This document shows, piece after piece, positions 48,781 through 55,360 of a stretch of 64,000 bases of DNA. Made by a program: the position numbers and the translations under genes. Position 1 is the first letter of the stretch; each line of letters opens with the position of its first letter. Source of the stretch: Clostridiales bacterium (GTDB lineage Bacteria > Bacillota > Clostridia > Christensenellales > Aristaeellaceae); NCBI GenBank assembly GCA_012837525.1, contig DUQZ01000062.1, forward strand, positions 1-64,000, written 5' to 3'. The notes below the pieces were generated by a model that was not told the origin of the DNA, did not search any database, and was given only the letters and a program-made list of their open reading frames with translations.

Positions 48781-48867
48781 AGAACCCGTATTCTAATGTG
48801 CGCTTCACGGTTTATTCACAGCCGTCTGGCATACTGAAAATACATGCTTGAAAGGGTGGGGTTTGTC

Positions 48868-49686
48868 ATGTTTGGGTATGTGGTCGCCAATGTGGACGCC
48901 TTGTCTGTTTTTGACAAGGACCGCTACCGCGCGGTGTATTGCGGGCTGTGCAAGGCCCTGGGTCAGGAGCATGGCCGGCTGGGACGGCTTACGCTCACCT
49001 ATGACATGACCTTTTTAATCCTGCTGCTTTCCTCACTTGATCAAACCGAGTTCGCAGAAGTATCCTCCTTCCGCTGCATGCTGCATCCGCTTCAAAAGCG
49101 TGAGGCCTTCATCAACAAGCACACCCGTTACGCCGCGGATATGAATTTGATGCTGGCCTATCACCAGCGCATGGACGACTGGGCGGACGACCGCAAAGCC
49201 AGCGCCTTCTTCCAGGCCAAAGCCTTGGGCGGTAAAATTGACGCGCTGAAGAAAAAACACCCCGCGCAGACAAAGGCGATTGTGGATGGCCTTTTAGAAT
49301 TATCCAAAATGGAATCAGACGGCGAAACCACACCCGATTTACCGGCCGCCGCTTTTGGCAGCATTCTGGGCGCGGTATTTGTGCCGGATGGGCACGAAAA
49401 CGCGGCTGCCCTGTATGACTTTGGCGACAAGCTGGGCCGGTTTGTCTACCTGATGGACGCGGCGGTGGATTTGAAGAAAGACTTGAAAAAGATGAAGTAC
49501 AACCCGCTGATCATGGTTCCCAGCGAGCGGCATCTGGAGTTGCTGCAAATGCTGATGGCGGACTGTGTCAGCGCGTATGAGACCTTGCCGATCAAAAAGG
49601 ACAAAAAACTGATGGACAACATCCTCTATTCCGGCGTCTGGTCCCGCTTCCCAACCCGCCCCGTGGATGAGGAGGAGACAGCATGA
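48868..49686 (+). CDS. DUF5685 family protein with isoprenoid-synthase-like Asp motifs
   Basis: 272 residues, mostly helical, of unknown function. The N-terminal YCGLCKALG has a Cys pair (25, 28). Two acidic motifs stand out: [11 protein letters not shown] at 98-108 and [19 protein letters not shown] around 196-214. Their spacing and flanks resemble the two Asp-rich motifs of squalene/phytoene synthases (YCRxxDDxVDD and NILRDVGEDxRRGRxYLP). No other evidence of such activity is visible. ATG 48868 is chosen because GGTGGGG lies just upstream; ATG 48844 has no ribosome site. It overlaps the DnaJ gene by 4 bp. Confidence 0.82.
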
Positions 49687-50345
49687 GAGACCCGTATGAG
49701 GTGCTGGGCGTCTCCCGCGACGCGAGTGAGCAGGAGATCACCGCGGCCTACCGCAAACTGGCAAAGAAGTATCACCCGGACTTGAACCCGGGTGACGCGA
49801 GCGCGCAGAAGAAAATGGCGGAAGTCAATGTCGCCTATGAGGAGATCAAGTCCGGTCGCGCCCGCTATCAGGATTATTCCAGGCCGCAAGCAGGGCCGCA
49901 GCAGCGCCCCTACGGCGGCTATGGGCAGTATGGCGGCTTTGACCCCTTTGAGGCCTTCCGCAACAGCTGGCAGCAAGCGCAGCAGCAACAGCAACGCAGC
50001 AGTTTTGACGGCTTTGACCCTGTCAGGCGCTACATGAACGCGATGCGCTACAACGAGGCGCTCTACGCCCTGAGCCAGATGAAGGACAGAACGGCCGAAT
50101 GGTATTATTTAAGCGCGGTCGCCAACTTCAATCTGGGCAACAGGGTCACCGCGCTCAACCATATTGATGAGGCGGTGCGCATGGCGCCGGACAATTACAA
50201 CTATGTGCAAACCCGCATGCAAATCCAGGGCAATGCCCAGCAATACACCCAGCGCAGCCAGATGTTTGGCATGCCGGACATCACCAGCCTCAACACCCTG
50301 TGCATGGGCCTGTGCTTGGCCCGGCTGTGCTGCAGGTGCTTTTAA
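49683..50345 (+). CDS. DnaJ-domain protein with C-terminal helical repeats
   Basis: 220 residues. The J domain (about 1-65) has the intact HPD tripeptide in [11 protein letters not shown], so it should stimulate DnaK. A Gly/Tyr/Gln-rich linker with a run of glutamines follows (about 70-105). The C-terminal part ([20 protein letters not shown]..., about 112-180) looks like a few TPR-like helices. There is no cysteine-rich or canonical DnaJ client domain, so this is a specialised J protein. It is coupled to the DUF5685 gene and followed 17 bp later by a membrane zinc-ribbon gene. Confidence 0.9.
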
Positions 50346-50362
50346 ATAAGGAAGGACAATCG

Positions 50363-50776
50363 ATGAACTTGAACAACTTAAAATACCGCCTGGCCAACAT
50401 GATGCGCGGCCGCTACGGCCCTGATGCCTTGTACCGTTTTTTGATGGGCATGATGATTTTCTTCCTGGTACTGAACATCTTCTTCCCTTCGATGGTATTT
50501 TATCTGTTTACGCTCATGTCAGGCGTGTTTGCCATGTACCGCATGATGTCTAAAAAGCACGCCCAGCGCGCGAAGGAAAACGAAACCTATCTGACGCTGC
50601 GCAGCAAAATCCAGCAAAGCGCTATGCAGTTTGTCAATCGCTTCCGGGACCGCAAGACCCACCGCTATGTCAACTGCCCTGCCTGCCGCCAGAGCCTGCG
50701 CCTGAAGCGCAAGCCCGGCTTGAACCACATCAAATGCCCGATGTGCTCCAACGAGTTCGACATCCACATCCGCTGA
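50363..50776 (+). CDS. Membrane-anchored zinc-ribbon protein
   Basis: 137 residues. Two hydrophobic segments lie at about 27-46 and 48-66 (LMGMMIFFLVLNIFFPSMVF, then FTLMSGVFAMYRM), followed by a basic stretch and a C-terminal zinc ribbon with CPACRQSLRLK and IKCPMCSNEFD (two CxxC pairs). ATG 50363 follows AAGGAAGGA; the longer frame to 50300 is inside the DnaJ gene. The function is unknown; the ribbon sits in the cytoplasm next to the J protein, suggesting a membrane-tied complex. A terminator follows. Confidence 0.85.
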   Translation: MNLNNLKYRLANMMRGRYGPDALYRFLMGMMIFFLVLNIFFPSMVFYLFTLMSGVFAMYRMMSKKHAQRAKENETYLTLRSKIQQSAMQFVNRFRDRKTHRYVNCPACRQSLRLKRKPGLNHIKCPMCSNEFDIHIR

Positions 50777-50811: not shown

Positions 50812-50836
50812 AAGGTACCGGCAAGTCCGGTGCCTT
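50812..50836 (+). terminator. Terminator of the DUF5685-DnaJ-zinc ribbon operon
   Basis: AAGGTACCGG (50812-50821) and CCGGTGCCTT (50827-50836), 10-bp stem with one T-G pair and a 5-base loop, followed by TTTC. Confidence 0.85.
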
Positions 50837-50930: not shown

Positions 50931-51509
50931 ATGCGGGCACTGCGGCAGGCCATCAAGGAATCCGGAATCGGCATTGGCACTGACATCGTCAAAGTCAGCA
51001 GCTTCCTTAACCACGGCTTGGATACCGGATTGCTCTTTGAGATGGGCGAAGCAGTCGCGCGGCATTTTGAAGCGGACCACCCGGAATTGGTGATGACCGT
51101 TGAGGCATCCGGCATCGCGCTGGCGCTCACCACTGCCCACGCGCTGGGCAACCTGCCCGTTGTCTTCTGTAAAAAGACGCCCGCCAAAAACCTGGACGAC
51201 GCGTCCTATACCACCAGCTGCACATCCTTCACCCGCGGCACAAACTACATGATGCGCTGTGAGAAAAACCTGATCAAACCAAACACCCGTGTGCTGATTG
51301 TGGATGACTTTTTAGCCAACGGCGCGGCCATCCGCGGTATGCTGGATATTATCAGCCAGGCACAGGCCATCCCGGTGGGTGCCGCTGTAGCGATTGAAAA
51401 AGGCTTTCAGCCAGGTGGGCAGCAATTGCGCCATGAAGGCATCAAATTACTCAGTTTGTCCATCGTCCAGGAAATCAGGGATGGCGTTATCCACCTGAAG
51501 GACGATTGA
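50931..51509 (+). CDS. xpt: Xanthine phosphoribosyltransferase
   Basis: Salvages xanthine to XMP with PRPP. The 192 residues match B. subtilis Xpt (194). The PRPP-binding motif VLIVDDFLANGAAIRGMLD is near residue 121, and the region IGTDIVKVSSFLNHGLDTGL at 18-37 is typical of Xpt. GGAGGG precedes the ATG. It lies 23 bp before the BMP-family binding protein gene, so it probably shares a transcript with the nucleoside importer. No guanine riboswitch is present upstream, unlike in Bacillus. Confidence 0.95.
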   Translation: MRALRQAIKESGIGIGTDIVKVSSFLNHGLDTGLLFEMGEAVARHFEADHPELVMTVEASGIALALTTAHALGNLPVVFCKKTPAKNLDDASYTTSCTSFTRGTNYMMRCEKNLIKPNTRVLIVDDFLANGAAIRGMLDIISQAQAIPVGAAVAIEKGFQPGGQQLRHEGIKLLSLSIVQEIRDGVIHLKDD

Positions 51510-51532
51510 TCAATAAACAATAGGAGGGCCCC

Positions 51533-52660
51533 ATGAACATCTTCAAAAAACCCCTGTTCTCCAAACTGATCCCCTTTGTGATGGCACTCACCCTTTTGAT
51601 GGCCGGCCTGATCACAGTCAGCGCCGAAAGCGCCTTCCCGGCGGTTCCCGCCAGCGACATCAAGGTTGGTATGGTCCTGATTGGACCGCAGGACGACGGA
51701 TTTTCCGGCGCGCATTACAATGGCCTGGAAGGCATGAAGGAAGCCCTGGGTTTGCGGGATGATCAGGTCCTGTACAAATTCAACGTGCCGGAGAACGCCG
51801 AGTGCGACGCCGCCCTGCGCGAATTGGTGGAAGCGGGCTGCAACATCATCTTCGGCAACTCCTGGGGCTTTATGAACTTCATGGAAGAGCTTGCGGAAGA
51901 ATATCCCGAGGTTATCTTCTCCCACTGCTCCGGCTACAAGAACAACGGCGTCAACTTCAACAACTATTTTGGCCGCATCTACCAAGCCCGCTACCTGGCT
52001 GGCATCGCCGCCGGGCTGAAGACAAAGACCAACAAGATCGGCTTTGTGGCCGCCTGGGCAGACAACGCGGAAGTCAACGGCGGCATCAATGCCTTCGCCT
52101 TGGGCGTGCAGTCCGTCAACCCGGACGCCGTGGTGTATGTGAAGTACATCTCCTCCTGGTATGAGCCGACCCTGGAAAAGCAGACCGCGGTTGCCCTGCT
52201 GGCGCTTGACTGCGACGTGATTGCCCAGCACGTGGATACAGCCATGCCCCAGGTCGCGGCGGAAGAAGCCGGCAAGTTTGGCGTGGGTTACAACACCGAC
52301 ATGACCCCCGCTGCCCCGAAGGCCCATCTGACCGCGCCCATCTGGCACTGGAGCAGTGTGTACATCGCGCAGGTGCAGGATGTGATCAACGGCACTTGGG
52401 TGCCCAACAACTACTTCCTGGGCTTGAAGGAAGGCATGGTAGACCTGTCTCCCTTGAGCGAAAACGTTGCGGAAGGCACGGAGGAGAAAATCGAAGCAGC
52501 CCGCGAGCGCATCATGTCCGGCGAGTGGGATGTCTTCACCGGCCCGATTTACAGCAACACGGGTGAACTGGTCCTGGAAGAGGGCAAGGTGCTTGAAGAC
52601 GCCGACATCACCGGCGGCCTCATGACCAACCTGCTCATCAAGGGCGTGGAAGCCAAATAA
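51533..52660 (+). CDS. BMP family nucleoside ABC transporter substrate-binding protein
   Basis: 375 residues, the periplasmic-binding-protein-like partner of the ATPase and permeases that follow. Start of the mature part KVGMVLIGPQDDGFSGAHYN and NNYFGRIYQARYLAGIAAGL near 142-160 are BMP hallmarks. BMP proteins bind purine or pyrimidine nucleosides. The signal peptide (about 1-34) ends VSAES with no lipobox cysteine, so it is not an ordinary lipoprotein. GGAGGG lies upstream. A hairpin at 52675-52711 after the gene would give this protein more transcript than the membrane subunits. Confidence 0.93.
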   Translation: MNIFKKPLFSKLIPFVMALTLLMAGLITVSAESAFPAVPASDIKVGMVLIGPQDDGFSGAHYNGLEGMKEALGLRDDQVLYKFNVPENAECDAALRELVEAGCNIIFGNSWGFMNFMEELAEEYPEVIFSHCSGYKNNGVNFNNYFGRIYQARYLAGIAAGLKTKTNKIGFVAAWADNAEVNGGINAFALGVQSVNPDAVVYVKYISSWYEPTLEKQTAVALLALDCDVIAQHVDTAMPQVAAEEAGKFGVGYNTDMTPAAPKAHLTAPIWHWSSVYIAQVQDVINGTWVPNNYFLGLKEGMVDLSPLSENVAEGTEEKIEAARERIMSGEWDVFTGPIYSNTGELVLEEGKVLEDADITGGLMTNLLIKGVEAK

Positions 52661-52674
52661 ACTTTCATAAAATC

Positions 52675-52711
52675 AAGGCGGGGCTGATGAATGCGAAAAC
52701 AGCCCCGCCTT
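52675..52711 (+). terminator. Terminator or attenuating hairpin after the BMP gene
   Basis: AAGGCGGGGCTG (52675-52686) and CAGCCCCGCCTT (52700-52711), a perfect 12-bp stem with a 13-base loop, followed by CTCTTTATTT. Probably reduces readthrough into the transporter subunits. Confidence 0.75.
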
Positions 52712-52734
52712 CTCTTTATTTCAGGGTTGAAATA

Positions 52735-52743
52735 TGCTATAAA
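52735..52743 (+). promoter_or_regulatory. Extended -10 promoter before the nucleoside importer ATPase
   Basis: TGC-TATAAA, 31 bp before the ATPase ATG and after the hairpin. No good -35 lies at 17 bp. It could supplement readthrough. Confidence 0.4.
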
Positions 52744-52773
52744 CAGAGGTAATTAAACCATGAAGGAGCCCGC

Positions 52774-54279
52774 ATGCCAGAGACACCTGCCATAGAGTTG
52801 ATACGCCTGACCAAATGCTTTGACAAGGTCACGGCCTGCGACTGCATTGACATGGATGTCCGCCGGGGTGAGGTGCTGGCGCTGCTGGGCGAGAACGGCT
52901 CCGGCAAAACCACGCTGACCAATATGCTCTCTGGCATTTACCAGCCAGACGCAGGGCAAATCATCCTTGACGGGAAGCCGGTCACCATCCGTTCCCCCCG
53001 GGATGCCATCCGCCTGGGCATCGGCATGATTCACCAGCATTTCAAACTGGTGGAGGTATTGACCGCGCGGGAGAACATCCTGCTGGGCCAGGCGGGGCTG
53101 ATCAAGACAAGCCCGGAGGAAGCTGTCAGTACCTTTGGCTTCCAGGTGGATCTGGACAAAAAGATCTATGACATGTCCGTCAGCGAAAAGCAGGCAGTGG
53201 AGATTTTGAAGGTCCTTTGCCGGGGCGCAGACAAGCTGATTTTGGACGAACCGACCGCTGTGTTGACCCCCCAGGAAATCCGCGCCCTGTTTGACGCCCT
53301 GGACCGCATGCGCAAGGAAGGCAAGGCCATTATCATCATCACCCATAAGCTGGAAGAGGTGATGGCGGTGTCTGACCGCGTCACTGTGCTGCGCAAGGGC
53401 GTAAATGTGGGCACGGTTGAAACCAGGGAAACCAACCGCTTTTTGCTGACAGAGATGATGGTGGGCAAGCCCATCTCCCTGGATGTGGAGCATGTGGACA
53501 TGCCGCCGGGCAGGACGCTGCTGCGGGTCAAGAACCTGTCCGCGACGGATGAAGGCGGGCGGCAGTTGATTCAGGACATCAACTTTGATTTAAAAGCGGG
53601 TGAAATCCTGGGTGTTGCCGGTGTCGCGGGCTCTGGCCAAAAAGCTTTGTGTGAGTTGATTGCCGGCATTGAAAAACCGGACTCTGGCACCATCCATATT
53701 GGTGAGACGCGCATTGACGGCATGAGCCCGGGTGAGATCATCAAGCAGGGCATCTCCATGGCCTTTATTCCGGAGGACCGCCTGGGCATGGGCTTGGTGG
53801 GCGGGATGGACATGCCTGACAACCTGCTGCTGAAAACCTATAACGACCAGAGGGGCTTCTTTTTAAACCGCAAGGAGGCGCGAAAGGAAGCCGCCGACAT
53901 GGTGGAGCGGCTGCGCATTGTGACACCTGGGCTGCATGTAAACATCCAAAAGCTGTCCGGCGGCAACGTGCAGAAGATCCTGTTGGGGCGGGAGATCAAC
54001 CTTAACCCGCGTGTGCTGATTACTGCCTACCCGGTACGGGGGCTTGATATCGGCGCCTCGATGACGATCTATGACATGCTGAATGAGCAAAAGCGCAAGG
54101 GCGTGGGCATCCTGTTTGTGGGCGAGGATTTGGATGTGATGCTGGGCCTGTGTGACCGCATCATGGTGTTGTGCGCAGGCCGCGTGAGCGCGATTGTAGA
54201 AAGCCAGTTTGCCACCAAGGCGCTGCTGGGCATGAAAATGGCCGGCCTGGTAACGGACAAGGAGGATGAATATGCCTAA
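52774..54279 (+). CDS. Nucleoside ABC importer ATPase (NupA/RbsA-type, two ATPase domains)
   Basis: 501 residues with two tandem ATPase domains, as in carbohydrate and nucleoside uptake (CUT2) ATPases. Domain 1 has Walker A GENGSGKT near 36 and a signature YDMSVSEKQAVEIL; domain 2 has the usual degenerate Walker A GVAGSGQK near 288 and signature LSGGNVQKILLGREI near 395. This asymmetry is normal for the family. SD GGAGC precedes the ATG. The end overlaps the permease gene start by 8 bp. It energises the two permeases that follow. Confidence 0.95.
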   Translation: MPETPAIELIRLTKCFDKVTACDCIDMDVRRGEVLALLGENGSGKTTLTNMLSGIYQPDAGQIILDGKPVTIRSPRDAIRLGIGMIHQHFKLVEVLTARENILLGQAGLIKTSPEEAVSTFGFQVDLDKKIYDMSVSEKQAVEILKVLCRGADKLILDEPTAVLTPQEIRALFDALDRMRKEGKAIIIITHKLEEVMAVSDRVTVLRKGVNVGTVETRETNRFLLTEMMVGKPISLDVEHVDMPPGRTLLRVKNLSATDEGGRQLIQDINFDLKAGEILGVAGVAGSGQKALCELIAGIEKPDSGTIHIGETRIDGMSPGEIIKQGISMAFIPEDRLGMGLVGGMDMPDNLLLKTYNDQRGFFLNRKEARKEAADMVERLRIVTPGLHVNIQKLSGGNVQKILLGREINLNPRVLITAYPVRGLDIGASMTIYDMLNEQKRKGVGILFVGEDLDVMLGLCDRIMVLCAGRVSAIVESQFATKALLGMKMAGLVTDKEDEYA

Positions 54280-55360
54280 GCCCTGGGTGATGCCGCATAT
54301 CGTCCAGCGGGGCGAGGTCAAGCCCGTGGTTGCCTGGAGCTACCGCGCGCTGGCGGTTGTGTTCGCCCTGGCGATGGGCGGCGCCTTTTTGGCTGCGCTT
54401 GGCTATAACCCCTTCCAGGTATACAGCACCATGCTGCGCGGCGCGCTGGGCACGCCGGGGATGCAAAAGGAAACCCTGAAGCTGACCATTCCCCTGGCCC
54501 TTACCAGTTTGGGTGTGCTGCTGGCCTTCAAAATGAAGTTTTGGAACATCGGCGCGGAAGGACAGATCGCGGCCGGCGCGATCGCCGCCAGCTATTTCGC
54601 CTATTTCCAGGCGCATCTGCCCCCTGCCCTGCTGCTGCCCCTCATGGCCGTCGCTGCCATTGTATTTGGCGGCCTGTGGGGCTTGATTCCGGCCTGGTTT
54701 AAGACCAAGTTTGGCACCAACGAAACGCTGTTTACCCTGATGCTCAACTACATCATGTTTTATTTCATCACCTATTTGCGCGAAGGCCCCTGGCGCGATC
54801 CGGGCGGCGGTTTCGCGGCCATGCCGCGTTTCCCCAAACAAGCCCGCCTGCCGGAGGTACCCTTCCCCTTTGTGGGCAACCTGCATGTAGGCTGGATTGT
54901 GCTGCTTGTGATGGTGGTGCTGGTCTTCATTTATCTGCGCTACACCAAGCACGGGTATGAGCTGACTGTCGTGGGCGAAAACGTGCGCACCGCGCGTTAT
55001 GCCGGCATGCCGGTGAAGAAGATCATCCTGCGCACGATGTTCCTGTCCGCGGGGCTGTGCGGCTTGGCCGGCATGCTGCAGGTGGCGGGCCCCGACCGCC
55101 AATTGACAGACGCGGTGGCGGGCGGGCGCGGGTTTACCGCGGTCAGCGTGGTCTGGCTGGCGCGCTTGTCGCCTGCCGGCTGCCTGGGCGTCTCCTTCCT
55201 GTTTGCCGCGATGCAAAAGGGCTGCAGCATGATGCAAACGGAGTACCGCATCCCCGCCTCCATGTCCGACATCTTGCAGGGCATCATCCTCTTTAGTGTG
55301 CTGGGCGCGGAGTTCTTTTTGCAGTACCGGCTTACCTCCCGCAAGGAGGTGGTGGTATGA
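54272..55360 (+). CDS. Nucleoside ABC importer permease 1 (NupB-type)
   Basis: 362-residue membrane protein with about eight to ten helices, BPD_transp_2 family, homologous to branched-chain and sugar CUT2 permeases. Typical runs are NIGAEGQIAAGAIAASYFAY near 90 and ARYAGMPVKKIILRTMFLSA near 243. ATG 54272 is chosen with GGAGG 6 bases upstream; ATG 54266 overlaps that site. It pairs with the following permease in one transporter. Confidence 0.93.
   Translation: MPKPWVMPHIVQRGEVKPVVAWSYRALAVVFALAMGGAFLAALGYNPFQVYSTMLRGALGTPGMQKETLKLTIPLALTSLGVLLAFKMKFWNIGAEGQIAAGAIAASYFAYFQAHLPPALLLPLMAVAAIVFGGLWGLIPAWFKTKFGTNETLFTLMLNYIMFYFITYLREGPWRDPGGGFAAMPRFPKQARLPEVPFPFVGNLHVGWIVLLVMVVLVFIYLRYTKHGYELTVVGENVRTARYAGMPVKKIILRTMFLSAGLCGLAGMLQVAGPDRQLTDAVAGGRGFTAVSVVWLARLSPAGCLGVSFLFAAMQKGCSMMQTEYRIPASMSDILQGIILFSVLGAEFFLQYRLTSRKEVVV

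Follow-up and report, generated by a model that had tools for sequence, protein, structure and literature searches.

What role does a DUF5685 protein play beside a J-domain co-chaperone? The window analysed here, a stretch of 64,000 nucleotides from a Clostridiales bacterium, carries three genes in tandem on the + strand, arranged and positioned as a first, sequence-only reading of this DNA had given them: a DUF5685 gene (48868..49686; 272 aa), a gene for a J-domain/TPR protein with a Cys tail (49683..50345; 220 aa), and a gene for a small membrane protein with a C-terminal zinc ribbon (CxxC...CxxC; 50363..50776; 137 aa). We found no described function for DUF5685 in the full-text literature searched, where the family is named in a domain list. 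The protein in the window matches PF18937 over its full length (residues 1-261; 289.9 bits against a cut-off of 26.7; E 2.5e-86), and we set its start at 48868, not at the in-frame ATG at 48844, because family members begin MFGY. The start codon of the J-protein gene overlaps the stop codon of the DUF5685 gene (ATGA). Its product has a J domain (PF00226, E 5.5e-20) and weak TPR signals; besides the J domain, its AF2 model contains helical repeats, a linker of low confidence and a short helix in the tail. Two CxxC pairs and a hydrophobic stretch are present in the third protein, which matches no Pfam family above cut-off. A hairpin resembling an intrinsic terminator lies 3′ of the three-gene unit (50812..50836, + strand); this is a pattern match only, and the region contains 5 such hairpins where 2.9 are expected from shuffled sequence. 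Further along the window (50931-55360), translations reveal a phosphoribosyltransferase-like gene followed by genes for a BMP-type substrate-binding protein, an ABC ATPase and a permease, a set that resembles a purine/nucleoside uptake operon.

Conserved residues and predicted fold of DUF5685

The sequence-only reading had likened two stretches of DUF5685, Y98-D108 and 196-K210, to the two Asp motifs of squalene/phytoene synthases. Both stretches sit where they had been placed and in the correct order, with a measured distance from D103 to D201 of 98 residues, close to the 95 or so that had been claimed. We aligned 44 divergent members of the family (272 columns), and used 65 closer relatives as a second set. 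In the divergent set, 22 of the 272 columns are conserved in at least 90% of members: M1, F2, G3, Y24, C25, G26, L27, C28, C70, D103, D107, E149, G190, Y194, D197, A198, D201, D205, N212, L226, L240 and N251. DUF5685 has 24 Asp residues, and those that pass this threshold are exactly the five motif residues D103, D107, D197, D201 and D205. In the first motif, D103-D104-x-x-D107 (DDxxD-like; 49174..49188, + strand), D103 is found in 44/44 divergent members and D107 in 43/44. In the second motif region, G190-x3-Y194-x2-D197-x3-D201-x3-D205-x6-N212 (49435..49503, + strand), all of the named residues are invariant across the 44 members. Thus, four of the five Asp residues singled out by the sequence-only reading (D103, D107, D201 and D205) fall in conserved columns (hypergeometric P about 1.6e-4, for 22/272 columns); the fifth, D104, is present in only 29/44 divergent members, although in 61/65 closer relatives, and D197, missing from that list, is invariant.

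An additional acid, E149 (49312..49314, + strand), lies between the two Asp motifs and is present in 44/44 members. DUF5685 also has a set of three Cys residues that is a candidate Zn or Fe-S site. Two of these form C25-G-L-C28 (48940..48951, + strand) and are invariant in both the divergent (44/44) and closer (65/65) sets; the third belongs to C70-x2-H73 (49075..49086, + strand), in which C70 is invariant and H73 is found in 32/44 divergent members and 63/65 closer relatives. No Arg or Lys is invariant among the 44 divergent members, the best position being R/K191 (39/44), whereas the SQS_PSY and polyprenyl synthase alignments with which we compared DUF5685 do have invariant basic residues. 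We conclude from these alignments that D103/D107 and D197/D201/D205 correspond to the pair of metal-binding motifs found in class I isoprenoid synthases, and that the missing invariant basic residue, which could have bound a diphosphate, weakens the claim of enzymatic activity more than it weakens the predicted fold.

An AF2 model of DUF5685 built from 65 sequences (pLDDT 91.9, pTM 0.90) is helical almost throughout, apart from short strands at residues 64-69 and 77-82. When we compared this model with the PDB using Foldseek, 50 of the 50 matches listed were isoprenoid synthases or UbiA proteins (E 2.4e-3 to 0.11; probability 0.77-1.00; TM(query) 0.29-0.56). By class, the matches listed are trans-polyprenyl synthases, MoeN5, UbiA and one terpene synthase; they include A3MSH1, E. 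coli FPP synthase and GGPP synthases, and several have a TM near 0.3 and high rmsd. Given that no match listed reaches E 1e-3, the link suggested by the model is remote but consistent, and it agrees with the independent evidence from the motifs. A viral fold library yielded only weak matches to trans-prenyltransferases and UbiA, sequence-only searches of the PDB with DUF5685 found nothing, and a profile-profile test against polyprenyl_synt (PF00348) was not significant. Because the profile-profile tests were not significant, the relationship to isoprenoid synthases rests on fold and motifs together. We conclude that DUF5685 very probably adopts the class I isoprenoid synthase fold and belongs to that superfamily (IPR008949), in line with the broader suggestion of the first reading: neither of the two outcomes named there as counting against it, a different fold or poorly conserved Asp residues, was observed. 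MoeN5 and polyprenyl diphosphate synthases (PF00348) are among the top matches, but they share only ~10-17% identity with DUF5685 in structural alignments, give no profile match and lack the Cys set. MoeN5 prenylates an acceptor other than IPP, so the fold can serve other acceptors.

The narrower assignment to squalene/phytoene synthases is not supported: DUF5685 has no SQS_PSY Pfam match, hhalign to SQS_PSY gives a probability of 3.5%, and there is no SQS/PSY among the 50 fold matches listed. Nonetheless, SQS_PSY (PF00494) and DUF5685 both have a DDxxD-type first motif, and their second motifs have identical spacing, G-x3-[QY]-x2-[ND]-x3-D-x3-D (G142, Q146, N149, D153 and D157 in SQS_PSY; G190, Y194, D197, D201 and D205 in DUF5685). 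However, SQS_PSY has an Arg three residues before the DDxxD, where position 100 of DUF5685 is K, Q or N; the second motif is Q..N..RD in SQS_PSY but Y..D..xD in DUF5685, such that the conserved Arg, Gln and Asn positions are absent; and the two motifs are 120 residues apart in the SQS_PSY alignment, compared with 98 in DUF5685. A true SQS_PSY gene is found elsewhere in the genome of the window, separate from DUF5685 (G000:C78:1246-2073, L141; E 5.7e-55); such genes are rare in the phylum sample (5/149).

A Cys-rich tail on the neighbouring protein

The J-protein of the window ends in an 18-residue tail that includes five Cys residues (50289..50342, + strand), and the rest of the protein is Cys-free. 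The Cys-rich tail, which tracks DUF5685, is the key feature of the locus, and was missed by the first reading. We compared 80 DUF5685 loci from named genomes, predominantly Clostridia but including a few Spirochaetes/Treponema and one Erysipelotrichaceae. A J-protein is encoded directly downstream of DUF5685 in 80/80 loci, although this does not represent 80 independent events, since the loci were picked for their resemblance to relatives of the window and are phylogenetically clustered. All 80 partners have an HPD J domain, and their last 45 residues contain 2-9 Cys. The density of Cys in these last 45 residues is 0.141 per residue, versus 0.0016 in the rest of the protein, and in 60/80 partners Cys is absent outside the tail altogether. 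Cys is the last residue in 50/80 tails and the second-last in 47/80, compared with a tail average of 14%, and 67/80 partners have a Cys within the last two residues. In a further 18 DUF5685-positive loci, drawn from the window's order, the last 55 residues of every partner include 5-11 Cys. The type of tail varies, being hydrophobic in the window and of a hydrophilic, CECMGGD type elsewhere. The tails matched no family in Pfam or NCBIfam, and have no conserved Trp; Cys is found instead.

Among divergent genomes, the tail occurs on partners that have a J domain but no TPR (L236 and L243), and on TPR-like partners that have no J domain (L237, L244, L245 and L246); in L240, it is DUF5685 itself that ends in a Cys-rich stretch. 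We conclude that the Cys tail, and not the J domain, is the constant feature of the partner as judged from these sequences. A Cys-tailed neighbour was not seen in some divergent genomes with DUF5685 (G113, G194, G216 and G284). We also searched 249 genomes of the phylum with a 21-base degenerate DNA pattern for CECMGGD, using the reversed pattern as a control. The pattern was found in 8/249 genomes, once in each and always at the C-terminus of a DUF5685 neighbour, and the reversed pattern had zero matches.

DUF5685 is present in 26 of the same 249 genomes. Strong matches to a J/TPR-tail profile, defined as E<1e-12, were found in 16/26 genomes with DUF5685 and 0/223 genomes without it (Fisher P 8e-19, uncorrected for phylogeny). 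In an apparent exception, G001, the J-protein gene is at the end of a contig, where DUF5685 would be cut off. Within the window's order, 186/218 genomes encode DUF5685, and in one family with small genomes (f181) both DUF5685 and the J/TPR-tail protein are absent. More widely, many anaerobic and gut Clostridia encode DUF5685, as do Spirochaetes and Thermotoga maritima. J/TPR homologues in the DUF5685-negative genomes that we examined have 0-2 Cys in their last 55 residues. One such genome, G044, has kept a cluster of zinc-ribbon, J/TPR and DnaK-like genes, and its J-protein ends in a hydrophobic, TM-like stretch, TILWRLFIGFLILQLISNLFMCGI. This is what a membrane helix that replaces a lipid anchor would look like, a suggestive observation from one case. 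The E<1e-12 cut-off separated a Cys-less J/TPR paralogue that is encoded in the window's genome but outside the window (G000:C21:971-1153, L235; E 7.7e-11, repeat part only); similar Cys-less paralogues are found in relatives both with and without DUF5685. We conclude that DUF5685 and the Cys-tailed partner are almost certainly a functional pair.

Other neighbours are less constant. A homologue of the zinc-ribbon protein is encoded near DUF5685, upstream or downstream, in 39/80 loci, and zinc-ribbon, J/TPR and DnaK-like genes are consecutive in a genome that lacks DUF5685 (L234:2244-5396), which suggests an association of the zinc-ribbon protein with the chaperone and not with DUF5685. The proposal that all three genes form a membrane-associated folding or lipid module is plausible in outline, but vague, and the zinc-ribbon gene is an occasional, optional companion. 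A DnaK-like (Hsp70-like) gene, recognised by sequence, adjoins some loci (L234, and as a cluster in 5/80). Polyprenyl synthase genes (PF00348) lie close to divergent DUF5685 genes in G209 (0.4 kb, same strand), G284 (~1.1 kb) and G216 (~2.2-2.3 kb); neighbourhood clustering of the 80 loci did not find polyprenyl synthase as a recurrent neighbour in the main clade. In polyprenyl synthases that neighbour divergent members of DUF5685 (L240:5117-6061, L241:3-740 and L242:1498-2640), the second motif is unusual, with FQxxDD replaced by FQIMNDLNN, FQVINDLNN and FQTINDINN, respectively. A small membrane protein is repeatedly encoded close to the Cys-tailed partner or immediately downstream of it (L236, L243, L244, L247, L249 and L250), in some cases with a weak match to DUF2232 (PF09991).

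Possible roles of the pair

Our computations show the predicted fold of DUF5685, the conservation of its metal motifs, its close genetic linkage to the partner, the make-up of the tail, and co-absence. The best explanation of these features, to which we assign a probability of a little under one half (roughly 0.45), is that DUF5685 is a prenyltransferase-like enzyme that lipidates the Cys tail of its partner, and so anchors the co-chaperone at the membrane. More tentatively, DUF5685 may be a bacterial cysteine S-prenyltransferase with an isoprenoid synthase fold that lipidates a cysteine-string J-protein and is unrelated to the eukaryotic farnesyl/geranylgeranyl transferases. We infer a prenyl donor, a thiol acceptor, zinc and membrane anchoring, as follows. 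DUF5685 would be a soluble enzyme of the class I (trans-type, all-alpha) superfamily, specialised for one Cys-tailed protein encoded by a neighbouring gene; this gene is its exclusive adjacent partner, and the product would be its substrate. A prenyl diphosphate would be bound via Mg2+ at D103/D107 and D197/D201/D205, and the prenyl group would be moved onto at least one thiol in the Cys-rich C-terminus of the partner; C25, C28 and C70 may hold a zinc to bind or activate the thiol. Once lipidated, the tail would keep the J/TPR co-chaperone at the membrane, and Hsp70 would be recruited there. The polyprenyl synthase and Hsp70-like genes beside some loci fit this scheme.

This arrangement resembles that of ComQ and ComX. 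ComQ belongs to the isoprenoid synthase superfamily, requires its first Asp motif, and modifies the C-terminal region of a peptide encoded next door (PMC5331326). ComQ/ComX and PalQ-type systems have the superfamily and the conserved first Asp motif in common with DUF5685 (PMC5331326, PMC13290415), and the logic of the proposed pairing is similar: ComQ has a substrate that is encoded by an adjacent gene and modified near its C-terminus, as the Cys-tailed partner would be. In contrast, the second Asp motif is lost in ComQ (pseudo-SARM) but invariant in DUF5685, and the invariant three-Cys set is extra relative to ComQ/PalQ-type enzymes. Moreover, ComQ/PalQ-type enzymes modify Trp of small peptides, whereas DUF5685 is paired with a Cys-tailed J/TPR protein; that all characterised trans-IDS-like peptide prenyltransferases target Trp (PMC13290415) is a point against modification of Cys. 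Further points against thiol lipidation are the modest Foldseek E-values, the variation among tails, the divergent genomes in which a Cys-tailed neighbour was not seen, and the failure of polyprenyl synthase to recur as a neighbour in the main clade. Two points weigh most: no basic residue is invariant in DUF5685, and some tails are of the hydrophilic CECMGGD type. Cys-dense hydrophilic tails look equally like metal-binding sites or lipid sites.

These same points favour a metal or redox module, in which the Cys tail would bind Zn or Fe-S, and DUF5685 would use repurposed carboxylates and its three Cys residues to handle or insert the metal. The invariance of C25, C28 and C70, hydrophilic tails with many Cys such as ADCCCECMGGDLISCC, and the lack of any invariant basic residue that could bind a diphosphate are all consistent with this possibility. 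However, the DDxxD-like and DxxxDxxxD motifs are retained at class I spacing, tails of the window's type are hydrophobic with few CxxC, Cys is concentrated at the last two residues, and the DUF5685-negative G044 has a TM-like tail. We therefore consider a metal or redox module unlikely. Another possibility is that the J/Cys-rich protein serves as a dedicated chaperone for DUF5685, which would itself produce a small terpenoid or prenyl lipid. There is a precedent in plants, where the DnaJ-type chaperone ORANGE stabilises phytoene synthase (PMC5025653, PMC12063368). The isoprenoid synthase fold predicted for DUF5685 is in keeping with such a role, as are the genes for polyprenyl synthases and DUF2232-like membrane proteins that lie close by in some genomes. 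Nevertheless, we regard it as improbable: the partner can lose the J domain yet keep the tail, the tail is on DUF5685 itself in L240, the tail is not of the CxxCxGxG type, and clustering of the 80 loci identified no terpenoid-tailoring genes that recur near DUF5685. Less probable still is that another enzyme fatty-acylates the Cys string, as in palmitoylation of eukaryotic CSP (PMC4447612), and that DUF5685 is a lipid-binding escort or pseudoenzyme. The lack of an invariant basic residue in DUF5685 fits this reading, but a pseudoenzyme would not need invariant Asp motifs, and clustering of the 80 loci revealed no further enzyme family as a recurrent neighbour of the pair.

Lipidation of the tail by DUF5685 thus remains our preferred reading, and its proposed outcome has eukaryotic counterparts: palmitoylation targets CSP (DNAJC5) to membranes (PMC4447612), and Ydj1 is isoprenylated at its C-terminus (PMC5014548). 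The partners of DUF5685 have a CSP-like layout, a J domain plus a Cys string, but we claim no homology of the tails, nor any relation to CSP or Ydj1 outside the J domain. To our knowledge, neither the DHHC enzymes nor the protein farnesyltransferase that lipidate these eukaryotic proteins resemble DUF5685. The pairing with a Cys-tailed partner gives DUF5685 a testable role. If the preferred reading is true, protein-cysteine prenylation would be added to the bacterial repertoire, and bacteria would have independently invented a J-protein with a lipid anchor, a counterpart to CSP and Ydj1 of eukaryotes. Given the wide spread of DUF5685, a result in one system would inform many genomes.
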